A DNA stretch of 64,000 bases from NCBI RefSeq assembly GCF_003568865.1, contig NZ_CP031115.1, positions 2,604,001 through 2,668,000 on the forward strand. The letters are read 5' to 3'. The position numbers and the translations under genes were made by a program. Positions 22,825 to 43,393 of this stretch are shown one piece after another; the stretch's first letter is position 1, and the number at the start of each line of letters is the position of its first letter. Source of the stretch: Rubrobacter indicoceani (GTDB lineage: Bacteria > Actinomycetota > Rubrobacteria > Rubrobacterales > Rubrobacteraceae). The notes under the pieces are model-generated. The model was not told where the DNA came from. It saw nothing but the letters and a program-made list of their open reading frames with translations, and made no database searches.

Positions 22825-24531
22825 TTAAACCGGCACCTTGTCTATGCCATAGACCTCAAGGGCGACCTCTGTTGCAAGGTTCACGTCCCTTTGCGAAAAG
22901 GCTCTTCGCAGCCTCTCAGCCTGATCTGGTGCGATCTCCTCTGGTCTTGGAACCCTTATGCGCCTCAAGTACTGTGCCTGAAAGCGAAGGTAGCCGTTGT
23001 TCATCTTGACCGCGTAGCACTCGATAAAAAACTGACAGACTCCTGAGAGCAGGATACCTCCGAGCACGCTGAGATCCCAAGTCTCGGAGGTTATATGGTA
23101 GAGGTTATGGTGCGGGTAATACTCTCCTCTATCCAAAACCGGATGGGCGACGTTCTTTATATCCGGTATGAGAAGCTTCTCCCTGCAAACGAGAGCGTAA
23201 TCGACCTTATCGATAGTTTTGTACCAACGAGACGGGTTCTTTCTCGCAACGTGTCGTTTGGAGAGGGCTTCGCGGGCTGCTCCGAGGTATGCACCGAGCT
23301 TCGGATATGTCCCCAGATCCGCGAGTTTACCGTTTCTCTCCCAAGGGTTAACGAGATAGGTGCCCGACCAGTTGAGGGTTCCGGACCTCGTATCGCCGGC
23401 CATCGCAAGAGGCAGGAGCCGATTCCGCTCGACCACCGAGGCATCCCTTGTCAGGAATACTCGGTCGGCACCAGTCGCCACACCGATACCCACCTTCGTA
23501 CCTGTCTCTGCGTCCTGAAGGGTTGGGAACCTTCTCTCAAGGTCGTAGAGAAGCTTAAGCCTACCCGGTGAGGCATTTGGCCAAGGATCAGAACCTCTAA
23601 ACCACTCGTCAACAACGACGTGCCTCACAGCACTGTGTTCGGAACTGGTACTGCGGTCTTCAAGAGACTTTACGGCGGCGCTCATTCGGACGCTCTTCAC
23701 CGCAGCGGTCAGGCTCTTTACACCTTCCAAAGATGGAGTGCATTCGACCTTGGCTACAACAACCCGGCCTTGTTCTTGCGTGCGACGAACCGTTGTGATG
23801 GCCGGATAGGCAAGCACCTCCGAGTGGAAAGCGTCTGCTCCGTAGAGATCCACGACGGCCTCGACCGAGTAAGCACCGGAAGAGATCATCTCCCTGAGAC
23901 GAGCACCGTACTGATTGAGCATCCACCGATCAGCACACACAAACGAACACACTCCGTTCGACGCAAGCATGTTAAGAGCGCGCTCGTAGAACCCAACGTA
24001 GAGGTCGGACCGACCCGACATCGTGCGGTAGCGTTTTCTGTAGACCTTCATAGCTGTCTGCTCGATCATCTCCAGACGGACGTAGGGAGGATTGCCAATT
24101 ACGAAGTCCACGCCGCCTCCGAGTGCTACAAGATCCAGTTCCCCGTCAAGTAGAAAATCTGAGCATCGGATCCAGCCCCCGGCAAGCTCCTCCGACAGCA
24201 CTCTGTTCCATCCAAGCTCAACAAGGACTGAAGCAACCCTCATACGGCTTTCCCGAACCGCCCGATCATCGAGATCAAAGGCGATAATCGAGCTGGCGCA
24301 CTCCCAGATGGAACGCCCCTGGCTCCGACAGGAGGCTGAGAGCCTCTCTGCCATCGCCTGAAGGAACTCACCCGATCCGCAGGACGGCTCGACGGCTACA
24401 GCGTCAACGAGGTTCCTGCCCGCCTCGTATCCAGCGAGGTCGAGAACGAGGTCAACGGTCCAGCTTTTCGTGTAGACAACCCCAGGTTCGGAGGTCTTTG
24501 AGGTAGACATTTTCTGACTCGCTCTGAACAT
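22825..24531 (-). CDS. Gamma-class N6-adenine DNA methyltransferase of the XhoI/PaeR7I-type system
   Basis: 568 aa. Motif I is VEPSCGSGEF (47-56) and motif IV is NPPY (147-150), the order of gamma-class adenine methyltransferases. The C-terminal half is a target-recognition region. Size and genetic neighbourhood match the modification enzymes of XhoI/PaeR7I systems, which methylate the adenine of CTCGAG. An ATG eight codons in (24510) is an alternative start. It is the first gene of the restriction operon, so protection would be expressed before cutting. Confidence 0.8.
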   Translation of the reverse strand: MFRASQKMSTSKTSEPGVVYTKSWTVDLVLDLAGYEAGRNLVDAVAVEPSCGSGEFLQAMAERLSASCRSQGRSIWECASSIIAFDLDDRAVRESRMRVASVLVELGWNRVLSEELAGGWIRCSDFLLDGELDLVALGGGVDFVIGNPPYVRLEMIEQTAMKVYRKRYRTMSGRSDLYVGFYERALNMLASNGVCSFVCADRWMLNQYGARLREMISSGAYSVEAVVDLYGADAFHSEVLAYPAITTVRRTQEQGRVVVAKVECTPSLEGVKSLTAAVKSVRMSAAVKSLEDRSTSSEHSAVRHVVVDEWFRGSDPWPNASPGRLKLLYDLERRFPTLQDAETGTKVGIGVATGADRVFLTRDASVVERNRLLPLAMAGDTRSGTLNWSGTYLVNPWERNGKLADLGTYPKLGAYLGAAREALSKRHVARKNPSRWYKTIDKVDYALVCREKLLIPDIKNVAHPVLDRGEYYPHHNLYHITSETWDLSVLGGILLSGVCQFFIECYAVKMNNGYLRFQAQYLRRIRVPRPEEIAPDQAERLRRAFSQRDVNLATEVALEVYGIDKVPV

Positions 24532-28251: not shown

Positions 28252-31200
28252 GTGATAGATAGTGGCTTCCTAGATCAGCCACAGGTGGAGAGAATCCGGG
28301 AACGCTTATGGAGCGGACGCGAGTTCGGGCGAGCAGCTGTAATGATTGGAGCGGGCTTCAGTCGCAACGCGATGCGCAGTTCGCTAGACACCCCTGTGTT
28401 CCCGCTCTGGGTTGATCTCGCAGGGGCAATGTACGATGCTCTGTACCCGTTGAACTCCGCAAGTCAGGTAGCTCGCGAGGACGACAAGAAGAGGAAGACG
28501 GCGAATGCTACAAGGCTAGCGAGTGAGTTTAAAACATCCTTCGGCCGTCCGGCGCTAGACAAACTTTTAGCACAATCCATACCTGATGAAAGCTACGAGC
28601 CCGGTCCTATCCACGAAGATTTGCTGTCCTTACCTTGGTCGGACGTGTTCACTACTAACTACGACACCTTACTGGAGAGGGCGCGGTTAGCCGTACACGA
28701 GCGGAAGTACGAACTGGTTCACGCCTCTTCCAACGTACCCGCCCAAACCAAGCCCAGGATAGTTAAGCTGCACGGCAGCTTTCCTTCTCATAGGCCCTTT
28801 GTCATTACAGAAGAAGATTTCAGAGTCTATCCCGCAAAGTCGGCTCCTCTCGTCAACCTGGTACAGCAGTCGATTATGGAGAATGCCTTTTGCTTACTCG
28901 GCTTCTCGGGCGACGATCCCAACTTTCTGAATTGGACAGGGTGGGTTCGAGACAATCTGGGACCCTCAACTCCACCTATCTACCTGGCGGGTTTGCTGAA
29001 CCTTTCGGGTCCTCAACGCCGTTTGCTGGAGAGCCGTGGAGTTACTCCAATAGACCTCTCGCCACTGTTTCCGCAATCGGAGTGGCACGACCCCTCTATG
29101 CGGCATGCTCGCGCGACGGAATGGTTCTTATCCAACCTTGCCGAGGGCAGACCACCAAGAGTTGACCGCTGGCCGCTTTCTTCCAAGTCGAGGCTACGGT
29201 GTCGGAGCGAGGGGTTGCCTGAGATACCAAGCGGTCCCCAGCCTATCCCTGAGCCAGGACCAGACATGCCGCTGCCAATGACACCGGTAACCGTTGAAGA
29301 CCTCGAAAACCTGTTAGAGAGATGGAGTAGTAGTCGGGCGTGCTACCCGGGATGGGCCGTGGCACCTAGCAGAAACAGGGACTCTCTATGGCGCGGAACA
29401 GAGCATTGGATCTACGCTATCTTAGACTCCACGGCGAGCCTAAATATCCCAAAAGACATGTTCTTGTTGTACGAGCTAAACTGGCGGCTGGAGAGGTGTT
29501 TGGTGCCTCTCTTCTCGGGGTGGGATGACAAGATCGCTTCGATCGTCGAGGCTTACAACCCCTTCCCGCATCTAATCGAGATTCCGAGTGCCACCGTACG
29601 GCCCGATGTCGCCAGGTATAAGGATCTCGATTGGAAGTCGATAGCGGAATGCTGGATAGACCTTACCTTCGCGCTAGCCCGCTTGGCAAGAGAAGACCAG
29701 GACGAAGAACGTTTTCGGCACTGGATGGATCAGCTGAAGAATCTGAAGGGTAGAAGTGAGGACTGGCAAGCTCGATGGTTCCATGAAGAGAGCTTGTTCC
29801 ACCTTTTCCGCCTGGATCAAGAAAGGGTACATCTTACGCTAGCACAGTGGCCGGAAGCGTCAGCTGCGTCTTCCATATGGGAGCTGAGGCGAGCAGCCTT
29901 GCTAGCTGAGCTAGGGCTTCTGGACGAGGCAGAGAGGATAGCCCAGCGGACGCTGGGGATCTTGCGCTCCCGAATGCAGCCGTATAGCGCCGATCATGCG
30001 CTCTTTTCGCAGGAGGGTCTTGCGCTGGTGTTGCTAGAGGGCATCAAGGCGAACAGCTCTGATTATGGAGAAGGGATGCTCTTTGAATCGCGCGACCGGT
30101 TACACGAGCTGGAACGGTATAGATGCAACCCCTGGGTCGAGATCGAGAACCTAGAGGGAACGGTCGTTGGTGTAGCCCCTTCTTTGCGCGAGTGGCAGCA
30201 GGAAACGCTCCCGGGATTCGATCCAGGACATCAAACTACCAACACAAACATGTCTGCAGGACTCAATGTCAACCCCATATTACCGGCCTTTGCACTGCTT
30301 AGGATGGCAGAGGATGGCGCCTTGCTTGCCAGGGTGGGTAGCGTCAACAGGTTCTCCGAGACGCTCCTGACCGCAACTCGTTGGATCGAGCCACACGCGC
30401 CGTTGTGGTCCTTTACCTCGATGATCCGCTTAGCGAAAGAGAAAGAGTTGCTGCGACTTTGGGACAGGGCCTATGTCGCCGCGCTACCCCCAGAGATTGT
30501 AAACCGTCTATTTGACGTACTGTTCAACTCGCTAGTTCAGTCAACCAGGCAGTTGGTTAATAACCCTGGTCAGATCGACGTTCAGTGGAGAAGCTTCTCG
30601 CAGCGTCAGGTAAAGGTAGCTTCGGAGCTCCTCTCGCGACTTTCTATTCGTTGTTCAGGGGAGCAACGAGAAAAGTTGTTTGATCAGGCCAAGCAGATGT
30701 ACGAGCTGCCGCTCTTCAGAGAACACCACCTGCTCCACGATTGCACGAAAGCTTTGTTCAAGCGGTTGTTGACATACGGCATGTCGCGAGATCAGATCAT
30801 CCAACGGGTCCCGGAACTATTGAGCTTGCCCGTCCTCGGTGATACAGGCGTTGAGACTAGTATCATCGATACTTGGATGGACCCTATCAATTTGCTCCAA
30901 TGGGATTACAGAAAGAAGCTACCTACTGACCTGGATAGGTCTAACTGGACCTCACCTATCGAAAATCTCAATCGTTTGGTATACAGCGGCACCCCCGAAG
31001 CAAGGAAGAGGGCTTCGGTCAGGCTCGCTTGGCTCTTCGACGCCGGAGGTTTGACCGCCGAACAAAGCAAGGCTTTCGGTGAAGCTTTATGGTCGCGAGT
31101 ACACGAGCAGACGGGGCTTCCGTCTGATACGAGCTTCCTACCCTACGCTTTTCTCTCCCTGCCTGAGCCGGAGCCGGGCAGAGCTAAAGATATCTATCGC

Positions 31201-32193
31201 AGGTACGTACTCTCCCTGGATTTTGTGAGATCGGTGCAGTGGCAGGCAACTAACGGTAACAAAGTTCAAAGCATCACATTTAGCCCAGGCGAGGAGGGCC
31301 TTCCAGAACTACTGCTCAGGTCCACGGTTCCTCTAAAACCGCCAAGTCTCGAAGATAAGCAAATTTTCATCGACTGGAGCTTGGACGAAGCGGTCCAGAT
31401 TCTGAGAAAAGTGATTGCTCTATGGGACGAAGAGAAACAAGCCCTGACCCCACATTTAGCTAACGATGCACTGGAACCTTTGGGAGGTGTGAGTCAACGT
31501 ATCGAGGGTAGGCTAAGGTTAGTCTCCATGGCTCTTCTGCCAAGAATGGCAGGAGCGGAAGATGCAGACAAGGTTGCGGTACAGCAGTTTATGGACGAGA
31601 TTGAGCAGACGGGCGTGCCGGTGGCGTCCGCGCTCCCGATGCTCCTCTACGTGAACAAAGGCCTTGAAGAACGGGTAGCCAATAAGATCTCTGCCGACCT
31701 GGATTCCGGCGTTCAGGCACGTGCCAGGTCCGCAGCGCATGGAATCCGTCTATGGATCGAACACGCTGAGCAAGGGAGCATCCCGGCGCCGCCGGGAAGC
31801 CTCCTTGATAAGCTTATCAACCGGACCCTCACTCGGAAGCCGTCGGCTCTGAACACCGTGCTCAGCGTTCTGAGGAGCTTGCTGAATCAACACCCGGGAG
31901 CGTTCAGCGAGCGTCAGTTGGATGCTATAGCAGTGTCACTTCAAGACCTGCTCGACGATACTCAACTGCCCCCTCATGGAGCAAGGGATCGTGAGGAACA
32001 GATCGCATCATTGCTCCCAGTGGGGTGGAGACCCGAGTACCGCTGGTTGGCCGCGCGGGTCGCATACCGCCTGTTTCAAGCGTACGCCAGTAGAGACGGC
32101 ATTTCATTCCCCGACGTATTGCAAAGGTGGAAGCTGGCGTGTGCAAATGACCCCTTGCCTGAAGTTAGGATGGCTTGGCTGCCAGAGGAATGA
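28252..32193 (+). CDS. Large SIR2-domain protein, defence-associated sirtuin type
   Basis: 1313 aa, GTG start. The N-terminal SIR2-like domain (about 20-290) has GAGFSRNA (33-40), VFTTNYDTLLE (TTNYD 134-138), VKLHGS (about 171-176) and LLGFSGDDPN (about 215-224), the residues that form the NAD pocket. The remaining thousand residues are alpha-helical and repeat-like, without a motif I recognise. Standalone SIR2 proteins of this size with a long helical C-terminus include the DSR anti-phage NADases, which sense phage proteins and deplete NAD. I infer the same role. The following CoiA-like gene is on the same strand 191 nt downstream. Confidence 0.75.
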   Translation: MIDSGFLDQPQVERIRERLWSGREFGRAAVMIGAGFSRNAMRSSLDTPVFPLWVDLAGAMYDALYPLNSASQVAREDDKKRKTANATRLASEFKTSFGRPALDKLLAQSIPDESYEPGPIHEDLLSLPWSDVFTTNYDTLLERARLAVHERKYELVHASSNVPAQTKPRIVKLHGSFPSHRPFVITEEDFRVYPAKSAPLVNLVQQSIMENAFCLLGFSGDDPNFLNWTGWVRDNLGPSTPPIYLAGLLNLSGPQRRLLESRGVTPIDLSPLFPQSEWHDPSMRHARATEWFLSNLAEGRPPRVDRWPLSSKSRLRCRSEGLPEIPSGPQPIPEPGPDMPLPMTPVTVEDLENLLERWSSSRACYPGWAVAPSRNRDSLWRGTEHWIYAILDSTASLNIPKDMFLLYELNWRLERCLVPLFSGWDDKIASIVEAYNPFPHLIEIPSATVRPDVARYKDLDWKSIAECWIDLTFALARLAREDQDEERFRHWMDQLKNLKGRSEDWQARWFHEESLFHLFRLDQERVHLTLAQWPEASAASSIWELRRAALLAELGLLDEAERIAQRTLGILRSRMQPYSADHALFSQEGLALVLLEGIKANSSDYGEGMLFESRDRLHELERYRCNPWVEIENLEGTVVGVAPSLREWQQETLPGFDPGHQTTNTNMSAGLNVNPILPAFALLRMAEDGALLARVGSVNRFSETLLTATRWIEPHAPLWSFTSMIRLAKEKELLRLWDRAYVAALPPEIVNRLFDVLFNSLVQSTRQLVNNPGQIDVQWRSFSQRQVKVASELLSRLSIRCSGEQREKLFDQAKQMYELPLFREHHLLHDCTKALFKRLLTYGMSRDQIIQRVPELLSLPVLGDTGVETSIIDTWMDPINLLQWDYRKKLPTDLDRSNWTSPIENLNRLVYSGTPEARKRASVRLAWLFDAGGLTAEQSKAFGEALWSRVHEQTGLPSDTSFLPYAFLSLPEPEPGRAKDIYRRYVLSLDFVRSVQWQATNGNKVQSITFSPGEEGLPELLLRSTVPLKPPSLEDKQIFIDWSLDEAVQILRKVIALWDEEKQALTPHLANDALEPLGGVSQRIEGRLRLVSMALLPRMAGAEDADKVAVQQFMDEIEQTGVPVASALPMLLYVNKGLEERVANKISADLDSGVQARARSAAHGIRLWIEHAEQGSIPAPPGSLLDKLINRTLTRKPSALNTVLSVLRSLLNQHPGAFSERQLDAIAVSLQDLLDDTQLPPHGARDREEQIASLLPVGWRPEYRWLAARVAYRLFQAYASRDGISFPDVLQRWKLACANDPLPEVRMAWLPEE

Positions 32194-32384: not shown

Positions 32385-34367
32385 ATGCGCATAGAGCAGT
32401 TGAAGACGATCTCAAAAACTTCCGATCTCAAGCATCAGTACGCCATTCTGGACGACAAACTTCTCTGCGCCCCGGATCTCCAGTCCGCGTACGGCGCAGA
32501 TAGCCGACATCCCGACCTTCGGAAGATTGTATGGGCATCCAAGAATCGTCGTCTCAAGTGTGCGGTCTGTGGCTCGATCCTCAAGCGCATGTTTGGTTCG
32601 GTGAAGAGGTGGCATTTTGCCCGGTTTCCGGGTCAGGTTGCGTGCGATCACGAGAACGAAACTGTCGAACATCGCCGCTCCAAGATCTCACTCTACGAAG
32701 CTCTCTCATATTCACTCGGTCTTGAGTGGAGCGTTTCGCTGGAGGAACGTCTATCGAATGGTCGTCGCCCGGACGTTCTCGCTACTCACGTCAGCGGGAC
32801 GAGGGTCGCCTTCGAAGTGCAGTATTCGAACCTCTCCGCTCAGGACTTCCAAGCTCGTCACGCCGACTACAGGAGCATCGGCGTTCGAGATGTGTGGATG
32901 CTCGGAGACAGACGGCAGGATCTGGAGCGCGATGCCTTGCGTGAACTCCTGAGTGCTACAAACGGCCAGCGAGTTATCTATATCAGAACGTTTAGTGAAA
33001 CGGAAGAGGTCACGGTACAGGAGGCGATTTTTGAAGATCCGGACAATAGAGTCTTCGGTATAGGTGGATACCTCGAACCCGGCTCGGTGGCGAACGGAGG
33101 TATCGTTGGTATCTGGGAGCATTACGGTCTTCAAAGTCTGGCACTGGCATCTGATGGAACCTTCCGCACACCGGCTGATGATCGCTTCGATGAACTCCAG
33201 AGAAGTGTCGCAACAAAGATTCAGCTTGAAACAAAACGCAGGGAGGCCGAGAAACTTCGTCTCAAAAGACAGCGTGAACGCTTGCGTAAGCGTCGAGAAG
33301 CCGAGGAAGCCCGTCTTCAAAAACAGCGTGAACAGAGACGCAGAAGAGAAGAAGAGTATGAACGCAAACGCCTGGCAGAGCAAGAGAAAAGGAGGTGCGA
33401 GGATAGGAAATGGCGTGAGTCCCCTAAACGAGAGATCGTTCTATCTAGGATAGGTGAAGAGCTGCTCGCAATGTTCGAGGTCGAGCGGGAAGAGGATCTC
33501 CACATCTATCGACCGCCCGGATACTGGAAGTCGGCTCTGTACCTCTCCTGTATACACGATAGACCCCCGAAATCCTTCATAGACTGGCTCGACGTAATGA
33601 ACAAGGCTATGAATTGCCCGCACGATCAGGCTCGAAAAGGACACTTTGCACGGGAAGCGGTTTATGAGTTTCGTCGTATTCTGGAGCGAGAAGAGCTGAT
33701 CGAGTTCGTCCGCAAAGATGACAAGGGTTACAAACGGTACTGGAGAACTCCACCTTCCATCGAAGAGAAGCAGCGGGCGGAGAAAGCTCGCCAGAAAGCA
33801 TTTCGAGCAGAACAGCAGCGCAAAGAACGAGAAGGAGATACTCGCCGGGAAGCATTACTGAAGAGACTTCAGGAGAACGCCGCCCTGCGAAGACCTGCCC
33901 CTCCCGAAATCTCTCCCGACAGTACCACGCCATTTGTCGAACCTCTTTCGGCTGAGCAGCGCAGGAGCAGAGAAGCAGCCAAGGCAAAATGGATTGACTC
34001 CGAAGACCGTAGGGTGTTAGCAGAGAATGTCGGACAGAAGCTCATGAACGTTCTTGAGAGCGACCATGACGCGGATCGCTATATTCTGGTTCATCCGGGA
34101 GAGTGGAAGGGTTTTCTATACACCCTGTTTCTACAAGGCAAACCATACGGAGAAAAACTCGACATCCGAGCTATGACGGAGATCATCTTAAAGAGATATG
34201 CAGTCGGAGATCTAGGTAAAGTCGTAACCGCGACAGTTGGATTTCTGGACACGATTTGTACGAGAAACGCAGGATTGCACAAAATAGACAGGGACGACTA
34301 CGTTACCGCAACGCCCGCAAAGATCTGGAGATGCGCAGAAGGCGCGTTGGGTAAAACATTTAGATAG
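32385..34367 (+). CDS. CoiA-like nuclease-domain protein with a long charged helix
   Basis: 660 aa. An N-terminal Cys pair (C59, C62) and HFA motif are followed by the CoiA-type nuclease region (about 85-170): ETVEHRRSK, YEALSYSLGLEWSVSLEE, RRPDV (D130) and FEVQYS (E144, Q146), then RSIGVRDVWMLG. This is the PD-(D/E)XK order known for competence protein CoiA. A highly charged Arg/Glu helix spans about 265-340. Two similar C-terminal domains follow (about 350-450 and 540-650), both with a YILVHPGEWK/IYRPPGYWK-type repeat. Natural competence is unlikely in this setting. It may act with the upstream SIR2 protein or alone as an anti-mobile-element nuclease. Confidence 0.65.
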   Translation: MRIEQLKTISKTSDLKHQYAILDDKLLCAPDLQSAYGADSRHPDLRKIVWASKNRRLKCAVCGSILKRMFGSVKRWHFARFPGQVACDHENETVEHRRSKISLYEALSYSLGLEWSVSLEERLSNGRRPDVLATHVSGTRVAFEVQYSNLSAQDFQARHADYRSIGVRDVWMLGDRRQDLERDALRELLSATNGQRVIYIRTFSETEEVTVQEAIFEDPDNRVFGIGGYLEPGSVANGGIVGIWEHYGLQSLALASDGTFRTPADDRFDELQRSVATKIQLETKRREAEKLRLKRQRERLRKRREAEEARLQKQREQRRRREEEYERKRLAEQEKRRCEDRKWRESPKREIVLSRIGEELLAMFEVEREEDLHIYRPPGYWKSALYLSCIHDRPPKSFIDWLDVMNKAMNCPHDQARKGHFAREAVYEFRRILEREELIEFVRKDDKGYKRYWRTPPSIEEKQRAEKARQKAFRAEQQRKEREGDTRREALLKRLQENAALRRPAPPEISPDSTTPFVEPLSAEQRRSREAAKAKWIDSEDRRVLAENVGQKLMNVLESDHDADRYILVHPGEWKGFLYTLFLQGKPYGEKLDIRAMTEIILKRYAVGDLGKVVTATVGFLDTICTRNAGLHKIDRDDYVTATPAKIWRCAEGALGKTFR

Positions 34368-34406: not shown

Positions 34407-34934
34407 CTACTCGCTGCTATAACTGAGCCTCTCTACCTCTTCTCTCAAATCGTGTGAGTGTGATCTGAACCCGTTTTCGACCATTCGCCGGAGCAACTCG
34501 TTGCCTTCACGGAGACCCATCTTGCCCTCCACCACTTCCCGGGCCAGTATCCCATATGTGCCTACTACACCGAACCTTCGCCGCAGAGCCTCGCGTCGGG
34601 CGTCGAGGTCGTCACTGATGAAGATCCACATCCCTCCGGTAGAGCAGACGGCAATCGAGGCGGCCTCACCCATACCGAAACCCCTATCTCGCAACTCGGT
34701 GAAGATGCCGTACTCCCAAGAATCAGCGTAGAGAGGCTGCACCTTTATCCAACCGTCATCCACAGCACGCTGGATAGCTTCCGGGTATGGACTATTCTCT
34801 GCTTCCATCAGAACCTCGCGCGTGACAATAAGCCGACCACCGTAACGACTACGGAGTATGTCCATACGCCCTGCGGAAGAGAAGTTGGAGACTGCGGTGT
34901 TGTCCAGAATAAACTGAGGGTTGTCGGTCTCCAC
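34407..34934 (-). CDS. PIN-like protein (DUF3368-type)
   Basis: 175 aa. The DUF3368 pattern is clear: FILDNTAVSNF (Asp11), GMGEAASIAVCSTGG, then IFISDDLDARREALRRRFGVVGTYGILA. These provide the acidic residues of a PIN nuclease site. It lies 9 nt after the ImmA/IrrE-like gene in an XRE-ImmA-PIN operon. Such trios are predicted toxin-antitoxin-like modules in which the PIN protein is the effector. Confidence 0.75.
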   Translation of the reverse strand: METDNPQFILDNTAVSNFSSAGRMDILRSRYGGRLIVTREVLMEAENSPYPEAIQRAVDDGWIKVQPLYADSWEYGIFTELRDRGFGMGEAASIAVCSTGGMWIFISDDLDARREALRRRFGVVGTYGILAREVVEGKMGLREGNELLRRMVENGFRSHSHDLREEVERLSYSSE

Positions 34935-34943
34935 CCGGGCAGC

Positions 34944-35765
34944 CTAGGCGAGCCGGGACTCGCCGACCATTTCTTCCTGCCCGGAGAGACGCAAAGGCAC
35001 CCCTACCTCTTCCAGAAAGTCTGCCGCCGCAACCCTGTCAATTCCCATAACTTCCGCGAATCGCGAGAGGGTTATCCTCTCATTCTCATACGACCTGACC
35101 GCAAGCTCCACCAAAGGTCTCGGACGCCTTAGCGGCTCCTCGTCCTGCTTCAGTTCTTCCTTACGATCCTCGTCCGGGTTATAGCCCAGGCGACGATCCA
35201 GAGACCACACACTGCCAATGTCTTTCAAGCGATCATAGTCCGATCGCTTTACGAAACCGAGCTGCATAAGGTGTAGCAGAGCCACACTGTAACTCACTCT
35301 GAAATGCCACCTGAGATGAATGACGGTTTTTTCGTCGATACCACCGCTCAGAGATCCGAGGTCGTCGAGTACCTGTAGCACCCCCTCACGGGGCATCAGG
35401 AAGTGTCTGGCAAAAGCGTAGGCGTAACGCTCAACCTCCTCGTTCTCATTGTGCCGACCGCAGACGATAGCCTTCACCATCTCTCTATCCTTGAGACTGT
35501 GACAATACTCGTGGGCAGCAGTGGTGGTCTGACGGCCCTTGGTACAGTGAGTGTTTATCAGGACGCACGAGCCGATTTCCTGCGAGTAGGTGAAAGCACC
35601 GAACAGGTTGTTGCTCTCGAAGGGAGCTTCGACGACAAAGATTCCCTCCTCCTCCATAAGCGCGACCATGTCCCACACAGGCTGCACGCCTAACCCAAGC
35701 CGCTGGCGAGCCTCTGCGGCAAAGGTCTCTGGCCCCAGTTCCAGCAAAGCTCTTCTAGTACCCAT
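34944..35765 (-). CDS. ImmA/IrrE-family metallopeptidase
   Basis: 273 aa. The COG2856 zinc site is present: AAHEYCH (H85, E86, H89), and further on NENEEVERYAYAFARHFLMP supplies the third ligand Glu. The C-terminal domain (about 130-270) includes a second HTH-like segment (RITLSRFAEVMGIDRVAAADFL). In the family, ImmA-type proteases cleave an adjacent XRE repressor after a stress signal (ImmR/ImmA of ICEBs1; IrrE/DdrO of Deinococcus). Its start overlaps the XRE gene end by 11 nt. Confidence 0.8.
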   Translation of the reverse strand: MGTRRALLELGPETFAAEARQRLGLGVQPVWDMVALMEEEGIFVVEAPFESNNLFGAFTYSQEIGSCVLINTHCTKGRQTTTAAHEYCHSLKDREMVKAIVCGRHNENEEVERYAYAFARHFLMPREGVLQVLDDLGSLSGGIDEKTVIHLRWHFRVSYSVALLHLMQLGFVKRSDYDRLKDIGSVWSLDRRLGYNPDEDRKEELKQDEEPLRRPRPLVELAVRSYENERITLSRFAEVMGIDRVAAADFLEEVGVPLRLSGQEEMVGESRLA

Positions 35766-36126
35766 CGATAGCCTCCTCCAACGACCGTCTGAGATCTGCT
35801 TGATCCCGGCACATACCCAGAAACTCGTCGAGTACCCTATGGTCCATCGGCTCTACATCCCCTGCAGAGCGAAGCAGCGCCTCGGTCGGAAGCCTTCCGC
35901 AGTCGATCTCAGCTTCGTTTCCACTCTCCAAAAGCGACGCTATAGGAACCCCGTACAGCTGCGCCATTGTGGCGAGGATGAGCCCCTCTATTCTCTGCTC
36001 ACCATTCTCCATCTTGGAGATCGCACTACGCGGCAGCTTCAGCCTCTCGGAAACCTCCGCCTGACTGACGCCCGCTCGCTCCCTCGCATCGGCGATCCTC
36101 GCGGCAAGCTCTCTACGTCCAACCAT
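35755..36126 (-). CDS. XRE-type repressor paired with ImmA/IrrE
   Basis: 123 aa. HTH_3 domain at about 5-62: ARIADARERAGVSQAEVSERLKLPRSAISKMENGEQ, a textbook XRE domain. The acidic C-terminal half may bind the protease partner. An AGGAGG lies about 10 nt before the ATG. A perfect 8-bp inverted repeat (36146-36168) lies just upstream, in a promoter region shared with the divergent Qat operon. It probably represses both directions, with relief by the ImmA-type protease; the second half of that statement is inference. Confidence 0.75.
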   Translation of the reverse strand: MVGRRELAARIADARERAGVSQAEVSERLKLPRSAISKMENGEQRIEGLILATMAQLYGVPIASLLESGNEAEIDCGRLPTEALLRSAGDVEPMDHRVLDEFLGMCRDQADLRRSLEEAIDGY

Positions 36127-36145
36127 GTTGTTGCAACCTCCTCTC

Positions 36146-36168
36146 TAATGTTCTACAATCGAACATTA
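36146..36168. promoter_or_regulatory. Inverted repeat between the XRE/ImmA/PIN operon and the Qat operon
   Basis: TAATGTTC, 7 nt, GAACATTA: a perfect 8-bp inverted repeat. A further half site GTTC lies near 36191-36194. The spacer contains TACAAT (36154-36159), a good -10 box for rightward (Qat) transcription. A repressor bound here could control both operons. Confidence 0.6.
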
Positions 36169-36211
36169 TTAGTATACCAATAAACTTAGTGTTCTAAACG
36201 GAGGTATGAGC

Positions 36212-36382
36212 ATGGCAAAGAATCCGCCGAAGGGTCCGGGACGTAGGGGTGCGGTCAAGGAGCGTAGTCAGGTCAAGAACCCAAAAACCGGCCGCTACGT
36301 GAAGCGCGACCGTGATTCGGGACGGTTCATGGATCAAAAGGCCGACGACAAGCCTTTCAAGGGCGTGAGAAGGGAGCGGTAG
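36212..36382 (+). CDS. Small basic protein preceding the Qat genes
   Basis: 56 aa, Lys/Arg/Pro-rich. The ATG at 36212 has GGAGG seven nt upstream; an in-frame ATG at 36206 is too close to it. The sequence contains NPPKGPGRRGAVKERSQVKN, then NPKTGRYVKRDRDSGRFMD and ends KPFKGVRRER. I recall similar short proteins beside other bacterial defence operons, but cannot name a family. The stop is 4 nt before the qatA GTG, so it is the first gene of the operon. A basic, probably DNA- or RNA-binding accessory is a reasonable guess. Confidence 0.65.
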   Translation: MAKNPPKGPGRRGAVKERSQVKNPKTGRYVKRDRDSGRFMDQKADDKPFKGVRRER

Positions 36383-36386
36383 CGGC

Positions 36387-38375
36387 GTGTGGTCGGACAA
36401 CGAGGCCGACGTAGATCTCCTACGCTACGCTTACCTGGCGTCCGGTGTATCCAGGATAGTGGGATCTAAGCATTTGCTACCGACGACAGTCGGTGTGTTC
36501 GGCGATTGGGGCAGCGGCAAGTCTAGTCTGCTCAAGATGATCCAGAAGGATCTTGAGGTGGAGCCAGAGGTCATGTGCCTGACCTTCGACGGCTGGCTGT
36601 TCGAAGGCTACGAGGACGCGAAGACCGCCCTGATGGGCACCATACTCGACGCCGTCCAAGACCGCGTGAAGGAGGACGCCACCCTTCGAGAGAAGGTTAG
36701 TGAGCGTCTGAAGGACCTGAGGCAGCGGATCGACTGGCTGCGGCTTGCGGCCATGACTGGCAGATTTGCGATACCCGTGCTGACAGGCTTGCCGGATTCA
36801 GGCGGGGGCGTGGACCCATCCGGGATGGCGGGGGACATCGCAAGCGGGGCCAATACCCTAACCCCCGCTGATGCGCAGGGTCTACTCGACAAGGTTCCCA
36901 AAGGCGAGGAGAACCTGCGCCGCAACATTCGAGAGTTCCGTGAGGATTTCGCGAAGCTCTTGGCGGAAGCGAAGATAAAGACCCTCGTGGTCTTCATCGA
37001 CGACCTGGACCGCTGCATGCCGGACACGATCATCGAGACTCTCGAAGCTATCAAGCTCTTCCTCTTTGTGCCCGGCACGGCTTTCGTGCTGGGGGCCGAT
37101 GAGCGCCTCGTGGAGTACGCGGTGCGCCTGCGGTTCCCCGAGTTGCCGAACGCCGAGATCGAGGTGGGCCGGAACTACCTCGAGAAGCTGGTGCAGTTCC
37201 CGATGAGGATACCTCCGCTCAATACCGTAGAGGTGCAATCCTACGCCAACCTGCTATTCGCGCAACTCGACCTTGGCCCCGATTCGAACGACTACAAGAA
37301 GGTCTGCGAGGCGGTGGCGCGGTCCGGGGCCGACAGCGTTTCGGAGCTATCGTTCGACCTCCAGGCCGCGCGGAGCCTCCTTTCCGAGACCTCCGTCCCC
37401 CCGCAGTTGGAGCTGGACCTCGACCTCGCTGCCCAGGTAGCGCCGATGCTAGCGCCGGGTCTGGGTGGTAATCCCCGACGCGTCAAGCGTTTCCTCAACA
37501 CCTTGCTGTTGCGCATGGCGTTGGCCGAGGATCGCGGCTTGGAGTTGCAGCGGCAAGTTCTCGCCAAGCTCATGATGCTCGAGTACGTCAGGCCCGGTTT
37601 CTTCAAGAAGCTGGCCGAACTCCAGGCGAACCAAGGCGGCAAGCCGAACGAGTTGGTGGAGACACACCTCAAAGAGCACTTAGGGAGTGAAAGCGACGAT
37701 CCGAAAGCAAACGGTCGGGAGGGTTCTGACGAGGCGAGCAAATCACGATCCGGGGCGCGCTCTCGTAGCAAGACGGAGGGCAAGCCACGCACGCCGACTC
37801 AAGAGGATCTTTCTGCCGACGTACGAACGTGGCTGGCCGACGATTGGATGCGGAAGTGGCTGGCGTCGGAGCCTACGCTGGAGGCCATCGACCTCCGCCC
37901 CTACTTCTACGTCGCGCACGACAAGCTGGGCGCACTCGATGGCTCGCCGCTGAAATTGACGCCGGCGGCCGTGGAGGTACTCAATCGACTCCTCAGCGAC
38001 CAGGGGGCCACGCGCAGGCTAGGGCTCAATCGCTCCGAACAGCTCAACGCCCCAGAGGCCAACGCCGTGTTTCAGGCACTAGCGGAAAGGATACGGCGAT
38101 CCGAAACACTGGGGCCGGGGTCACCGCAGGTAGTGCTGTTTGAATTGCTGGAGCACCGGCCCGAGCTCGTACCCCAACTGGTGGCCTTGTACGAGTCCCT
38201 GCCCGAACCAAAGATCACCCTCGAAACGCCCGGACTGCTGCGCCAAGTTGCGGAAGGCACGCCAAGCGCTGCGGCGGCGCGAGGTCTCATAGGGCGCTGG
38301 AGCAGGTCCGCCGCCAAGACGGAGCTCGCCGGTGCGGCGGAGACGATACTGGATCGTCCGTGGGAGGGCAGCTAA
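36387..38375 (+). CDS. qatA: QatA: KAP-family P-loop NTPase of the Qat defence system
   Basis: 662 aa, GTG start with AGGGAG 10 nt upstream. Walker A GDWGSGKSS (39-47) and Walker B VVFIDDLDRC (D205-R209) with the DDLDRC signature define the KAP NTPase family. A hydrophobic segment (about 118-136) sits between them, where KAP proteins carry membrane helices. A long helical C-terminus follows, with a low-complexity charged linker near 435-475. It is the first of four genes in the exact qatABCD order. Qat (Gao and colleagues, 2020) protects against phages. The mechanism is not settled. Confidence 0.85.
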   Translation: MWSDNEADVDLLRYAYLASGVSRIVGSKHLLPTTVGVFGDWGSGKSSLLKMIQKDLEVEPEVMCLTFDGWLFEGYEDAKTALMGTILDAVQDRVKEDATLREKVSERLKDLRQRIDWLRLAAMTGRFAIPVLTGLPDSGGGVDPSGMAGDIASGANTLTPADAQGLLDKVPKGEENLRRNIREFREDFAKLLAEAKIKTLVVFIDDLDRCMPDTIIETLEAIKLFLFVPGTAFVLGADERLVEYAVRLRFPELPNAEIEVGRNYLEKLVQFPMRIPPLNTVEVQSYANLLFAQLDLGPDSNDYKKVCEAVARSGADSVSELSFDLQAARSLLSETSVPPQLELDLDLAAQVAPMLAPGLGGNPRRVKRFLNTLLLRMALAEDRGLELQRQVLAKLMMLEYVRPGFFKKLAELQANQGGKPNELVETHLKEHLGSESDDPKANGREGSDEASKSRSGARSRSKTEGKPRTPTQEDLSADVRTWLADDWMRKWLASEPTLEAIDLRPYFYVAHDKLGALDGSPLKLTPAAVEVLNRLLSDQGATRRLGLNRSEQLNAPEANAVFQALAERIRRSETLGPGSPQVVLFELLEHRPELVPQLVALYESLPEPKITLETPGLLRQVAEGTPSAAAARGLIGRWSRSAAKTELAGAAETILDRPWEGS

Positions 38376-38378
38376 CTC

Positions 38379-39242
38379 GTGGGCACGTCCAGCTCCTATC
38401 CTGGCCCTCCCGGAACGACCCCGCTCCTGCCGCCGTGGGCCGACGAACCGGTGCCGATGCCCGAAGACCTGCGACCCGACGGGAATGATAACGATAACGC
38501 ACCGGACACGGACGAGTCGCCAGACGGAAACACGCAAGACGGGCTCGACTCGCTAGAGCCTCTTGTATCCTGGAGGGGGCCCAAGACCTTGATGACCAGG
38601 TGGGCGCGCGGCGACGACTCTGTTTCGTTGGGTTCCGTCGCGCGGTCTTACGTTAGGGCCAGCGGAGGCTCTAGGGGAGCGACCGCGTCCTCCGTCTCCG
38701 GGAGAGCGACGACGGCCAAGATCGGCGGCTTCCTCGCGGATGGGCTGCGCAACGGCTTCGCGCAAGCGGCGCAAAACCTCGGGCTCGTGAACCTCGTCGG
38801 GCGTGACGCCCAGTTCGTCCTCGCCTCCTTCATAGACCTTCTGGTGCCGGCCGGGGCGTTGCTCGAGGCCGCCGCCGCACGCAAGGCGGGCATCGAGACC
38901 TTGTCGGAACTATTCAGGCGATTCGACGTCGAGACAAACGGACTCGCCGCGCTCGATGCTCTCGACTCCACAGGGATGCTGGAAGTGGTGCAACTTTCGG
39001 TCACAAATTTCGTGAACGAACGGTTCCAACAGGAGTTGGTCTCTCGGATCGAGAGAGGCGCCATCTCGGAACAGAGGGCCAACACGTTATCCAGCGAAGT
39101 AAAGGGGTTCATCGCGGGCATCGTCAAGCTGGACCTTAGGGGCGTTGATCCCGTCGGGTTTGACTGGCGCGGTGCTCCCGGGGCGTCGTTCGTGGCACGG
39201 ATCTACCGGGCGGCATACTCGCTTCTCGGGGACGCCGCATGA
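38379..39242 (+). CDS. qatB: QatB of the Qat defence system
   Basis: 287 aa, GTG start 4 nt after the qatA stop, with GGAGGG upstream. The N-terminus (GTSSSYPGPPGTTPLLPPW, then a Pro/Asp/Asn-rich acidic linker) resembles QatB proteins, which begin with a Gly-Thr-Ser-x-Ser-Tyr-x-Gly-Pro motif. A helical domain (about 75-280) follows. No enzyme motif is visible; its function in the family is unknown. The stop overlaps the qatC start (ATGA). Confidence 0.8.
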   Translation: MGTSSSYPGPPGTTPLLPPWADEPVPMPEDLRPDGNDNDNAPDTDESPDGNTQDGLDSLEPLVSWRGPKTLMTRWARGDDSVSLGSVARSYVRASGGSRGATASSVSGRATTAKIGGFLADGLRNGFAQAAQNLGLVNLVGRDAQFVLASFIDLLVPAGALLEAAAARKAGIETLSELFRRFDVETNGLAALDALDSTGMLEVVQLSVTNFVNERFQQELVSRIERGAISEQRANTLSSEVKGFIAGIVKLDLRGVDPVGFDWRGAPGASFVARIYRAAYSLLGDAA

Positions 39243-40564
39243 GCTGGCACGTCGTCTGCCTCGCCGGTCCCGAGGACCGTTTCGCCCCCGCCCTGTCCCC
39301 CGCCGACGAGGCGCTCGTGGTCCCGCTCGACGTACCAGGACACCCGTATTCGTTGAGGACGACCGTACCCGATGTGTTGGCCGAGTATGGCATCGTACCC
39401 TCCGATGCGGCACGCGACCTTCTAAACGCGGCCGTGGCAGCATATACGGCCGATGTGCGCATACCCCGGCGGTCCACGTTCGACGGCTGGACCCGGGACT
39501 TGACGCTACACCTCCCCGTGCGCAGCGCCCGCTGGTCGGAAGGAGCCGGGGTGCTGACGAATCTGCTCCGTTTCCTCACGGGGGACCACTGGACCGTCGA
39601 GGTGAGACGAGCTCCCGATTCCTACAGTCCGTTACAAGGCGATGTCCCTCGCCGCGGCGCCCGCGAACTGGCAGCTGAAACGGTCTGCCTATTCTCGGGG
39701 GGTCTCGATTCCTACATCGGCGCGGTGGATCTTCTTGAGAGCGGTGGCCGGGCGGCCCTGGTTGGGCATCACAGCGCAGGGGGAGGTGCTACCAGCACCT
39801 CCCAAAAAGGGGCCCTGGCGGCCTTGCGCGCAGAATACACCGAAGAACGCACCCCCCTCCTCCAGTTTTGGATTTCGCCCCCGAAGGGTGAAGAGCGCGC
39901 CTCCGAGATTACCACCCGGGGCAGATCGATCCTCTTCCTAAGCCTCGGCGTCGCTGTAGCGGACGGGCTACAAGCCGAGCGGTTACTCGTTCCGGAGAAC
40001 GGTTTGATCTCCCTCAACGTTCCACTGACAAACTCCCGGCTCGGAAGCCTCAGCACGCGCACCACTCACCCCTATACGATGAAGCTGTTCCGGGAGCTGC
40101 TTACGTCCATAGGCGTGGACGTAGGCGTGGAACTGCCGTACAGGTTCCGCACGAAAGGCGAGATGTTGTGCGGGTGCGTGAACGATGAGCTTGTCGTGCC
40201 GGGGTTGCTCGCGACCATGTCTTGCTCGCACCCGGGCGCGTCCAGGTTCGCTGGAAAGAGCCCGAACATCCACTGCGGCTACTGCGTGCCGTGCGTGATC
40301 CGGCGGGCCGCCGTGGCGTCTTCCGGGCTTTCGGACCCTACCGCCTACGGGACAGAGGATCTGTCGCGTCCACCGGAGGGTGACAGTGGTTCCGACCTTA
40401 GGACGCTGAGGATAGCCCTCGACCGGTATCGGAAAGCCCCTCCCACCGTAGCAGACGTGCTCGTACCCGGTCCCCTGCCGGGAACAGACGAGGAACTAGC
40501 AGCTTACCTGGATGTGTTCAGCCGCGGACTCGACGAGGTGAGGGACCTGCTGATCATCGGTTAG
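39239..40564 (+). CDS. qatC: QatC: QueC-like PP-loop protein of the Qat defence system
   Basis: 441 aa. An unfamiliar N-terminal domain (about 1-145) precedes a QueC-like ATP-pyrophosphatase: SGGLDS (153-158) is the PP-loop, and C329, C346, C349 and C352 (HCGYCVPC) form the QueC-type zinc site. QueC makes preQ0; defence-linked QueC relatives use related chemistry to modify nucleic acids or proteins. The zinc cysteines and PP-loop are intact, so an active enzyme is expected. It overlaps qatB by 4 nt. Confidence 0.85.
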   Translation: MSWHVVCLAGPEDRFAPALSPADEALVVPLDVPGHPYSLRTTVPDVLAEYGIVPSDAARDLLNAAVAAYTADVRIPRRSTFDGWTRDLTLHLPVRSARWSEGAGVLTNLLRFLTGDHWTVEVRRAPDSYSPLQGDVPRRGARELAAETVCLFSGGLDSYIGAVDLLESGGRAALVGHHSAGGGATSTSQKGALAALRAEYTEERTPLLQFWISPPKGEERASEITTRGRSILFLSLGVAVADGLQAERLLVPENGLISLNVPLTNSRLGSLSTRTTHPYTMKLFRELLTSIGVDVGVELPYRFRTKGEMLCGCVNDELVVPGLLATMSCSHPGASRFAGKSPNIHCGYCVPCVIRRAAVASSGLSDPTAYGTEDLSRPPEGDSGSDLRTLRIALDRYRKAPPTVADVLVPGPLPGTDEELAAYLDVFSRGLDEVRDLLIIG

Positions 40565-40578
40565 AATGCCGGAGAGCT

Positions 40579-41343
40579 ATGCGCCTCTTCGACACACACT
40601 GCCATCTCGATCTCTACCCGGACTATCGCGGTGTGATTGATGAGATCGAGCGTGCCCGGATCTACACCATCGCGGTTACCAACGCGCCATCCGTCTTTCG
40701 TCGCTCCTCGCAAATCGCCGAAGGCACGCAGTTTGTCAGGACCGCAATAGGATTGCATCCAGAGCTGGTCGGTCAACGCTATGGGGAACTGGGGCTATTC
40801 ACGGAACTGCTCGGCGAAACGAGTTACGTGGGCGAAGTCGGACTGGATTTCGTGTCCCGAAACCAAAGAGATCGTGACTTGCAGAAGAAGGTTTTTAGAA
40901 TCATCTTGGAACGGTGTGCAGATCAAGGCGACAAGTTTATCACGGTGCATAGTCGACGTGCCGCTGGGGACGTGGTGGATATGGTGGGCAGCGCGTACCC
41001 TGGCACGGTGGTACTACACTGGTTTTCTGGTTCCTCGAAAGTTCTGGAGAGGGCTCTAGAGAACGGGCTCCTCTTCTCCGTCAACCCCGCCATGCTGGCA
41101 AGCGAGAAAGGGCGTCAACTCATTGCGAAAATACCCCTCGACAGGCTACTTACGGAAACCGACGGCCCCTTCGTACGGGTAGGGGACAATTCTGCACGGC
41201 CCCGCGACGTTGCCGCCGTGGTATCCAGGTTAGCCGAGCTGAAGAATCTTGATCCAGACAAGGTGGCGGAAGCCCTGTTCGACAACTTTCGTGACGCGTT
41301 GACCCCAGAGCACAGGCCACGACTTCAATGGGTTCAAACCTAG
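40579..41343 (+). CDS. qatD: QatD: TatD-family nuclease of the Qat defence system
   Basis: 254 aa, full TatD length. Metal-binding motifs: FDTHCHLD (H7, H9), GEVGLDF, TVHSRRA, LHWFSGS and TETDGPF. TatD enzymes are Mg-dependent DNases of the metallo-hydrolase fold. A GGAGAG lies before the ATG, 15 nt after qatC. It closes the four-gene Qat operon. Confidence 0.85.
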   Translation: MRLFDTHCHLDLYPDYRGVIDEIERARIYTIAVTNAPSVFRRSSQIAEGTQFVRTAIGLHPELVGQRYGELGLFTELLGETSYVGEVGLDFVSRNQRDRDLQKKVFRIILERCADQGDKFITVHSRRAAGDVVDMVGSAYPGTVVLHWFSGSSKVLERALENGLLFSVNPAMLASEKGRQLIAKIPLDRLLTETDGPFVRVGDNSARPRDVAAVVSRLAELKNLDPDKVAEALFDNFRDALTPEHRPRLQWVQT

Positions 41344-41581
41344 AACGCGAAAACTTCGATCGAAGTGGTTGGGAGGACGTCGTCTCATAGTCGCCCGGCG
41401 GCAGAAGACCATCTGGATTAAAGTGCGGCAACCTCAGAAGGCCCGTGTATCCAGTTCACCTCGTCTACAACACTACACTCATTCGCTTAACTTATCTGTT
41501 CTGTACATACGCACATTTCGGTTCTTGTATTGTTTAATGGCTTCCGTTACATATGTGGACATAAAGCCGCATTGGTCACTC

Positions 41582-43393
41582 TCAAGTCTGATACTTGAAA
41601 GTATTGTCGATGTTCTTGAAATACACGCCAAGAGTCTTTGGGTCGGCTTCTATAAGGCCCGATCTCAGTGGCTCCCAATCAGTCCCCTGTCTCCGTAATT
41701 CGACTTTCAGTTTCTCGTAGGGAGAGTCCTCGTTACCGTATCTGCGTTCATACGTGAACGTACTCGCCGGAGGGTGCGTAGCCTGTGGCCCCTGCTTCAA
41801 GCCAGTTGGCTCCAAGTTCATTGCTACGAGCGCGAGCAAAGCCTCGAACTTCTGGAAGGCCTCCACATACTCTGTATCAGTAGCAATATAGTCTTCGAGA
41901 GCCTCTCTCAACGTTTTGTGCAGATACTCCGTCATAGGCAAATCGTATTGCGTATCAGGGAAGATATAGGAAGTGTAATCGCTCCGACGGAGGTGCCGCG
42001 TAAAGTCGACTGGATGCAGACCGTATCCGATTGGGAGCAACTGGGAGCTGGGCGTATGCACGATCTGCACTTCTCTTACAATAGCCCGAAGAAGCGGCCA
42101 GTTACCCACAAGCGCACATATGATGCCAACGGCATACAACAAGCGAACTGCCGGATAAAGTTTCATCTGTCTCCATAGTGAGTCAAAATATCCATCTGCG
42201 GACGGTGGCTCCTCTACGGCCGCCCTGAAAATTTTAACGAAAGGCTCTATCTGGTCTTCTCGTGACCAGTAGGCTCCGGTAACGAGTACCTTGAGTGCTG
42301 TCTCGCACAGCGTATCGTAAAATCCCAAACGTTTCTGAACCTCTCGAACTATCTCTTGAGGATCGTATCCCTCACCTGAAGGAAAAGTATCATTGGAGAA
42401 AACTGTTCTTCTCAGTTCAGAAGCAACCTCGACGGCAAAATCGTGCAGCCTTATGCGGTACTTGTCCTCTGACAGATAGCGTTTGACGTTTGCGACAGCC
42501 ACTGCCGGGCCGAGAGGATCTCCTTCTGACAAGGAGTTCAAAGCCTCGATCTTCTCCTCCAGCTTCGAGAAGAAACTATCCGCTCCCTCTGACTCTATTA
42601 TTTCACCGTCCAGAGCCTGCGCCAGTTCTGCTTCTTCCTGTTTGGGCTTTCGGTAAGAGACCCAGTATGTCGTGTATCTGCGGCTCCTCGCTCTTCTGAG
42701 AGCGTCCTTCAGCGCGATGTCCGATGTTCCAGACCAACCGCAAACGATCAACCCGTACTCGTCGAAAATCTTGTCCAAAAGGAGGTTAGTCTCTGGATCA
42801 TAGCTTTCCAGTTCCTGCGATGTGTTTTTGATCCTGGTATCCAGGTAGTCACCGTTGATCTTCACCACTGTAATCCCCGCATGTTGTAGCGGTTCAGCGC
42901 CCAATACAGAGTCCGGGGTTGCGATAACGGTCGGCGTTATTCCCTTGGCTTCTAACGCCCTCTCCGTGAGCCTGTCGAAGTTGGTCGTGAGTATCACGCT
43001 CAGGTAACCTCGGACAACCAGACTTGCTATCGCCTCGTGAGCCGTCGTGGGAACCTTCTTACCTTCCTGCCGTTCCAGATCGGTCGGCTCGAAATACTCT
43101 TTCAACAGGTTACGCCGTTCTGTTTGGGAACGTGCCAGCCCGCCGATTACTTCGGAATAATCTGGCTCCCGGCCAAATTGCTCCTGATGCCACTTCAAGG
43201 GGTCGGCAAGAGCATCATCTTCGACACCGTCAGAGACCATAGCTTTTTTGACCAGATCGAGCGTGATTTCCCAGCCTGTAGGAATGCTAGCCGCCCGGGA
43301 CAATCCAGATCCCAGTAGTAAGGCGTATGAGCCGGGCTTAGCGGTTATCGAAAGTGCCAGAGATACAACTGGATCTACACTGAACTTACCCAC
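41582..43393 (-). CDS. SIR2-like protein with a helical C-terminus
   Basis: 603 aa. SIR2-type NAD-binding motifs lie in the first 230 residues: LLLGSGLSRAASIP (GSGLSRAA 28-35), TTNFDRLTE (136-144), VKINGDY (about 177-183) and VCGWSGTSD (about 217-225). The gap between them and the rest of the protein is unlike the 1313-aa SIR2 protein at 28.3 kb, so they are distant relatives. The C-terminal 370 residues include probable hydrophobic helices near 425-445. It is probably an NAD-consuming effector of another defence system. It is convergent to qatD and 106 nt downstream of the TOPRIM-like gene, so the two may form one unit. Confidence 0.7.
   Translation of the reverse strand: MGKFSVDPVVSLALSITAKPGSYALLLGSGLSRAASIPTGWEITLDLVKKAMVSDGVEDDALADPLKWHQEQFGREPDYSEVIGGLARSQTERRNLLKEYFEPTDLERQEGKKVPTTAHEAIASLVVRGYLSVILTTNFDRLTERALEAKGITPTVIATPDSVLGAEPLQHAGITVVKINGDYLDTRIKNTSQELESYDPETNLLLDKIFDEYGLIVCGWSGTSDIALKDALRRARSRRYTTYWVSYRKPKQEEAELAQALDGEIIESEGADSFFSKLEEKIEALNSLSEGDPLGPAVAVANVKRYLSEDKYRIRLHDFAVEVASELRRTVFSNDTFPSGEGYDPQEIVREVQKRLGFYDTLCETALKVLVTGAYWSREDQIEPFVKIFRAAVEEPPSADGYFDSLWRQMKLYPAVRLLYAVGIICALVGNWPLLRAIVREVQIVHTPSSQLLPIGYGLHPVDFTRHLRRSDYTSYIFPDTQYDLPMTEYLHKTLREALEDYIATDTEYVEAFQKFEALLALVAMNLEPTGLKQGPQATHPPASTFTYERRYGNEDSPYEKLKVELRRQGTDWEPLRSGLIEADPKTLGVYFKNIDNTFKYQT

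Follow-up and report, generated by a model that had tools for sequence, protein, structure and literature searches.

A conserved putative operator between an XRE-ImmA-PIN module and an S38-headed Qat operon in Rubrobacter indicoceani

The window analysed here is a stretch of 64,000 nucleotides of Rubrobacter indicoceani (positions 2604001-2668000 of contig 1, genome 3.08 Mb), in which genes for an XRE-family repressor, an ImmA/IrrE-type M78 metallopeptidase and a PIN-domain protein lie on the minus strand, divergent from a QatABCD operon on the plus strand (Table 1). The three minus-strand genes form one predicted operon, with an 11-bp overlap between xre and immA and a 9-bp gap between immA and pin, and PADLOC models recovered the KAP ATPase QatA, QatB, the QueC-like QatC and the TatD-like QatD, all present and in order. 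The earlier note had described a perfect 8-bp inverted repeat with TACAAT in its spacer, placed between these divergent operons, and our analysis bore out both statements; it had missed the small gene S38 (36212-36382), which separates the operator from qatA, as well as a third half-site (36187-36198) and a second predicted promoter that faces the first. The S38 stop codon is followed by the qatA start after 4 nt, and an upstream in-frame ATG of S38 is found at 36206. With xre and S38-qatABCD divergent and 85 bp apart, the XRE-M78 module is thus located at an immune-operon promoter. The module is surrounded by a defence island within the window, comprising DSR2 (2e-243), a PDC-S65 SIR2 protein (4.1e-184), a type II restriction enzyme (2.7e-60) and a methyltransferase (2.8e-181), at 28252-32193, 41582-43393, 21272-22012 and 22825-24531. 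The 660-aa product of the gene at 32385-34367 contains a CoiA nuclease domain (1.5e-12) and had no PADLOC match, and a CoiA-family gene also occurs near S38 in Spirosoma (L149).

Table 1. Genes and predicted regulatory features at the locus (window coordinates)
Feature	Position	Strand	Evidence
PIN-domain nuclease, 175 aa, putative toxin/effector	34407..34934	-	PADLOC PDC-S70, E 1.5e-13
ImmA/IrrE-type metallopeptidase (M78, HEYCH) with C-terminal UPF0175-like domain	34944..35765	-	Pfam M78 2.1e-14, UPF0175 2.6e-7
XRE-family repressor, 123 aa	35755..36126	-	HTH_31 2.1e-12, HTH_3 5.7e-12, PADLOC capH 1.8e-5
Putative operator O1, TAATGTTC-N7-GAACATTA	36146..36168 (conserved core 36150-36164)		Inverted repeat and comparison
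Third half-site, TAGTGTTCTA (36187-36196) and conserved GTTCTAAAC	36187..36198		Direct repeat D2; over predicted xre -35
Predicted S38-qatABCD promoter, TTGCAA-17-TACAAT	36131..36159	+	Consensus only; TATAAT in G037 and G011
Predicted xre-immA-pin promoter, TTTAGA-16-TATACT, extended -10	36171..36198	-	Consensus only
S38, basic protein, 56 aa, heads qat operon	36212..36382	+	PADLOC PDC-S38 5.2e-29
qatA, KAP ATPase	36387..38375	+	PADLOC QatA 1.6e-149
qatB	38379..39242	+	PADLOC QatB 1.2e-35
qatC, QueC-like	39239..40564	+	PADLOC QatC 3.5e-117
qatD, TatD-like nuclease	40579..41343	+	PADLOC QatD 1.4e-87

The ImmA/IrrE-type protease, as the earlier note had classified it, has a complete active site, with H85, E86, H89 and E112 invariant in 14 aligned sequences and HEYCH as its HExxH motif, and CapP and IrrE are among its nearest relatives of solved structure. 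A profile search returned a cro/C1-type HTH protein (9vzy) first, followed by CapP (7t5t, 1.4e-12), IrrE (3dte) and an IrrE orthologue; the fold search with the ImmA model gave CapP as the best match (3.5e-6) with IrrE/PprI next, and PADLOC matched the protein to capP (4.4e-8) and also to RmrA. CapP bears a C-terminal GAF-like domain. No GAF-like domain was evident on ImmA, the C-terminal third of which was modelled as helices and matched UPF0175 (30.6 bits against the curated Pfam cut-off of 27.9 bits). According to the available text of PMC10904395, the GAF-like domain of PprI is required for activation by ssDNA; with a UPF0175 domain and no evident GAF-like domain on ImmA, an ssDNA trigger cannot be assumed here. 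COG2886 (UPF0175) is listed among the antitoxin families of PIN genes in the accessible part of PMC2701414, and the UPF0175-like domain here does lie beside a PIN gene, but fused to the protease and not as a free antitoxin. The PIN protein, of an RNA-cutting type and 68-70% identical in L029 and L031, gave no Pfam match at 0.01, and its acidic residues were read as catalytic by eye. Because PIN follows 38 distinct ORFs among 84 M78 ORFs (39 rows, one gene being entered twice), its presence beside the protease is ordinary.

The arms of the inverted repeat, TAATGTTC and GAACATTA, are 100% complementary and separated by N7, and TACAAT occupies 36154-36159 inside this spacer. Dinucleotide shuffles of the intergenic region produced a perfect inverted repeat of at least 8 bp (spacer up to 20) in 1.8-2.7% of cases, and repeats of that class were present in 18 of 810 window tiles of 79 bp and in 2 of 22 tiles with similar GC; the 8-bp repeat alone is thus weak, marginal evidence (shuffle p about 0.02-0.03). 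The degenerate core pattern GTTCNANNNTNGAAC had two sites in the 3.08-Mb genome, O1 itself and window 41332-41346, the latter 5.2 kb from O1, at the 3' end of qatD and flanked by convergent genes, which we took as a chance match. Such a genome-wide scarcity fits a local regulator, and a dispersed XRE regulon was ruled out at this pattern. No LexA box was seen by eye against its consensus. The two promoters predicted by consensus face and overlap each other, with starts at about 36164 and 36166, and each -10 sits in the transcribed side of the other. The predicted -35 TTGCAA lies beside the start of xre and is poorly conserved, and the consensus scan gave no plus-strand promoter in 36160-37000.

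Two relatives, G037, which belongs to the same family, and G011, carry xre-immA-pin divergent from S38, with ImmA orthologues of 83% identity in G037 and 75-82% in G011. Both are drafts (G037 is 79% complete), and QatC was not found in either. The G011 module is split over two contigs and its S38 is frameshifted and truncated; an integrase gene reaches up to the 3' end of the truncated S38 (L030 2456-3627), as if a mobile element had inserted there. In the three-sequence alignment, which includes G011 with its broken S38, the operator core ATGTTCGATT[G/A]TAGAAC was invariant in 16 of 17 columns, whereas elsewhere in the intergenic region 37 of 67 columns were (p = 0.004). The half-site GTTTAGAAC (9/9 columns) and the xre -10 TATACT (6/6) were likewise invariant among the window, G037 and G011, and so were 17 of the 45 intergenic columns that lie outside the four marked blocks. 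In G037 and G011 the spacer has TATAAT when read on the S38 strand; conservation does not extend to the outer ends of the 8-bp arms, 5+5 being left in G037. Since the GTTC-N7-GAAC core is kept, together with the half-site and both predicted -10 boxes, in two relatives without detected qat, O1 is, as far as its sequence can tell, probably a real site that is older than its tie to Qat.

The earlier note had suggested comparing other Qat loci for adjacent XRE-ImmA pairs. This pairing turned out not to be a general feature of Qat: the XRE-ImmA-PIN module stood beside Qat in 1 of 18 loci, namely this window, and general XRE-ImmA control of Qat was thereby ruled out. Dropped before this count were L189, in which qatA is broken by IS elements, L033, with QatC and QatD only, and nine loci in which a QatC-like gene was present without any QatA match (L034, L035, L056, L174, L177-L180 and L182); L173 was counted, though without a QatB match. 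Two further arrangements were not counted: in L191 an XRE-type gene stands by itself, without a protease, 76 bp upstream of qatA and in the same orientation, and in L125 an XRE-ImmA pair lies about 2.6 kb downstream of qatD. In four of the nine loci with a QatC-like gene alone, a QueC-like, QatC-related gene (~455 aa) overlaps a fused XRE-ImmA gene (~395 aa) with no QatA, QatB or QatD match, a recurring pair (L056 8238-10795, L177 11547-14083, L179 9183-11737, L180 1765-4307).

S38 matched the PADLOC candidate PDC-S38 over positions 1-56 of the 57-position profile and had no Pfam or NCBIfam match. In an alignment (A4) spanning several phyla its identity to the remaining 25 rows was 49-79%, one relative being represented by two rows (L029 and L044), and homologues were found in 65 plasmid records and 16 phage records. 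Twelve of the 16 phage records were streptococcal, and in a staphylococcal phage (L155 3501-3671) the match falls within a group of early genes, some 2 kb away from a cI-like repressor gene, with the gene annotated at that position on the opposite strand. Four weak profile matches (best 0.023) were the only ones in the PDB, and the fold search returned nothing at E 0.001 (model mean pLDDT 75.7, four sequences), so the S38 fold gave no lead. A DNA query with the Vibrio S38 gene gave no match in E. coli.

We then considered the neighbours of S38 in 30 loci: 18 from plasmids (of the 65 records), chosen by eye for host variety and not randomly, 11 from genomes, and 1 from a phage (of the 16 records). 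Among the genome loci, three were weak (E ~1e-9 to 1e-10, in short loci only) and two others lay at contig edges; L068 and L074, which came from the ImmA scan, were left out. A Cap-type regulator (XRE-M78, WYL or CapK/CapS-like) stood beside S38 in 16 of the 30 (12/18 plasmid, 4/11 genome and 0/1 phage loci), compared to 0 of 17 other Qat loci (p = 1e-4), the latter figure being by HMM with CapK/CapS not among the HMMs run. Three of the 16 (L128, L152 and L144) rest on Pfam or annotation and not on our own HMMs; the HMM-only count was 13/30 versus 0/17 (p = 0.0015), and it was 10/27 (p = 0.004) minus the window and its two relatives. A narrower count of 16/26 (p = 2e-5), from which the phage locus and the three weak loci from genomes had been dropped, is superseded by the fuller one. 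In the other 14 of the 30 loci such a neighbour was absent or out of view. XRE-M78 genes are divergent from S38 in the window, G037, G011, G123, Synechococcus and Rhodococcus, and on the same strand in Spirosoma and Geobacter (the latter via a weak M78 match). WYL genes are the neighbours in six plasmid loci, in each case divergent from S38, and a GHKL ATPase and winged-HTH pair, CapK/CapS-like, precedes it in two Vibrio plasmids (L128, L152). Palindromes at 13 S38-regulator intergenic regions were strong in L068 and L145, had a shuffle p < 0.07 in the window, L030 and L147, and were no better than shuffles in L029, L074, L143 and five of the six WYL loci.

The genes downstream of S38 varied: Qat in the window, CBASS-type genes in L129 and L128, a multiubiquitin-ThiF operon in L068, and nuclease-like genes (L150, L151), an Abi_C protein gene (L186) or genes of unknown function in other loci. 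L068, an acidimicrobial genome found via the ImmA scan, has xre, immA (M78 1.1e-16; UPF0175-like 0.009, under the cut-off) and a PIN gene (3.5e-26 with our own HMM, without a Pfam match), divergent from S38, Multi_ubiq (1.2e-21) and a DUF6791-ThiF-DUF6527 protein, and is thus the window's xre-immA-pin/S38 cassette with a different payload. Since the cassette faces another operon in this genome, and since no Qat was detected in the two relatives that have S38 and the operator, Qat seems to be an exchangeable payload of the cassette.

The proposal of the earlier note that one switch serves both sides therefore holds in a changed form: the operator-promoter region is conserved and shared, and qat follows closely behind the first predicted regulated gene, but the direct partner of the module is S38, not Qat. 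We lean towards a CapH/CapP-like, protease-released repressor that governs both operons from overlapping promoters. The XRE protein would repress both, from O1 (36146-36168) and the half-site near 36187-36198, acting leftward on its own xre-immA-pin promoter and rightward on that of S38-qatABCD. With the predicted starts a few bases apart and each -10 in the other's transcribed side, RNA polymerase would probably occupy one promoter at a time. Upon a stress signal ImmA would cut, and probably destroy, the XRE repressor, the loss of which would turn on S38 and Qat on one side and yield extra ImmA and PIN on the other, with PIN probably held back by the UPF0175-like domain of ImmA. Qat defence would thus probably be switched on by stress.

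Alternatively, XRE-ImmA-PIN may be a self-contained, autoregulated three-component toxin-antitoxin system that shares the intergenic region with S38-qat by chance, in which case XRE would act on its own promoter only and Qat would be constitutive or otherwise controlled. The trio is widespread (PIN after 38 distinct genes among 84 M78 genes), was predicted as such a system in 2009 (PMC2701414, in its accessible part) and is absent from 17 of 18 Qat loci, all of which suit this reading. We nevertheless judge it unlikely, as S38 faces the regulator also in L029, L030 and L068, and the operator holds the predicted S38-side -10, which makes an independent rightward promoter hard to arrange. XRE could also be mainly an activator or positional switch that blocks its own promoter and frees polymerase for S38-qat, so that Qat would be on in normal growth and cleavage would bring Qat down and PIN up; the predicted promoters do face and exclude one another, but O1 covers the predicted S38 -10, so a bound repressor should block it, and CapH and ImmR are described as repressors in the literature accessible to us, which renders this scenario improbable. 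That the repeat is a chance palindrome and not an XRE operator, with conservation stemming from core promoter and ribosome-binding elements, would agree with its marginal p of about 0.02-0.03 and its counterparts in 2 of 22 similar-GC tiles, but we give this little credence, since the GTTC and GAAC arms are invariant without being promoter hexamers and 16 of 17 columns are retained versus 37 of 67.

Returning to the protease-released repressor of both operons, we note that 'two-layer defence with a protease sensor', as the earlier note put it, is a known idea: XRE-M78 repressor-protease switches on immune operons are already known, as is the XRE-M78-PIN trio, and the Qat case is the new part. 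The conserved, shared putative operator offers a direct, testable route to inducible Qat, by which a switch of known type would reach Qat via a tiny, almost unstudied protein that accompanies several of these switches across widely differing bacteria. The literature searched, mostly without subscription papers and with supplements outside its scope, yielded no function for S38, no account of S38 as a companion of three regulator classes and no XRE-ImmA control of Qat; the control of Qat is also undescribed in the accessible portion of the structural paper PMC13279940. S38 is the most interesting lead: one tiny conserved protein beside three unrelated immune-regulator classes suggests a shared component of regulated bacterial immunity. 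As a tentative and still doubtful extension, S38 (~56 aa, ~60% identical across phyla) might be the dedicated first gene of damage-switched immune operons, induced first whichever the sensor (XRE-ImmA, WYL/CapW, CapK/CapS) and the weapon (Qat, CBASS, ubiquitin-like operons), and it might prime, license or restrain that weapon; in the window, a single protease would then release Qat as well as restrain or free the PIN nuclease.

Among known systems, protease-released control of adjacent immune operons by CapH/CapP has been published (cited in the available text of PMC13373217, in which 'qat' has 0 occurrences). The window resembles CapH/CapP in pairing an XRE gene and a separate M78 protease gene with an adjoining immune operon, CapP being among the best structure matches of ImmA, and differs in its extra PIN gene, in a UPF0175-like in place of an evident GAF-like domain, and in its payload of S38 and Qat; lacking an evident GAF-like domain on ImmA, it is CapH/CapP-like and not a member. 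CapK/CapS, CapW and VapKSC likewise adjoin immune operons, but belong to other protein families, and the accessible sections of PMC13373217 and PMC9122588 name no S38-like small protein with them. Makarova predicted in 2009 that the XRE-COG2856-PIN trio acts as a three-component toxin-antitoxin system and tabulated 60 COG2856-PIN pairs; the trio shares with our module the XRE, protease and PIN genes in one predicted operon, and here too PIN may be toxic and neutralised by a partner, whereas that paper, in its accessible part (PMC2701414), ties the trio to neither an immune operon nor S38 and does not mention a UPF0175-like domain. ImmR/ImmA (ICEBs1, TnSmu1) and DdrO/IrrE (Deinococcus) share an XRE repressor that is cleaved by an M78 protease, together with autoregulation and palindromic operators (PMC10233336, PMC12565409, PMC10904395, in their available text), but their targets there are mobile-element or DNA-repair genes, and IrrE/PprI, unlike the present ImmA, needs its GAF-like domain for ssDNA activation. 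Finally, the QatABCD operon of the window differs from the other Qat loci in being preceded by S38 and a divergent XRE-ImmA-PIN module, an arrangement present in 1 of 18 loci.
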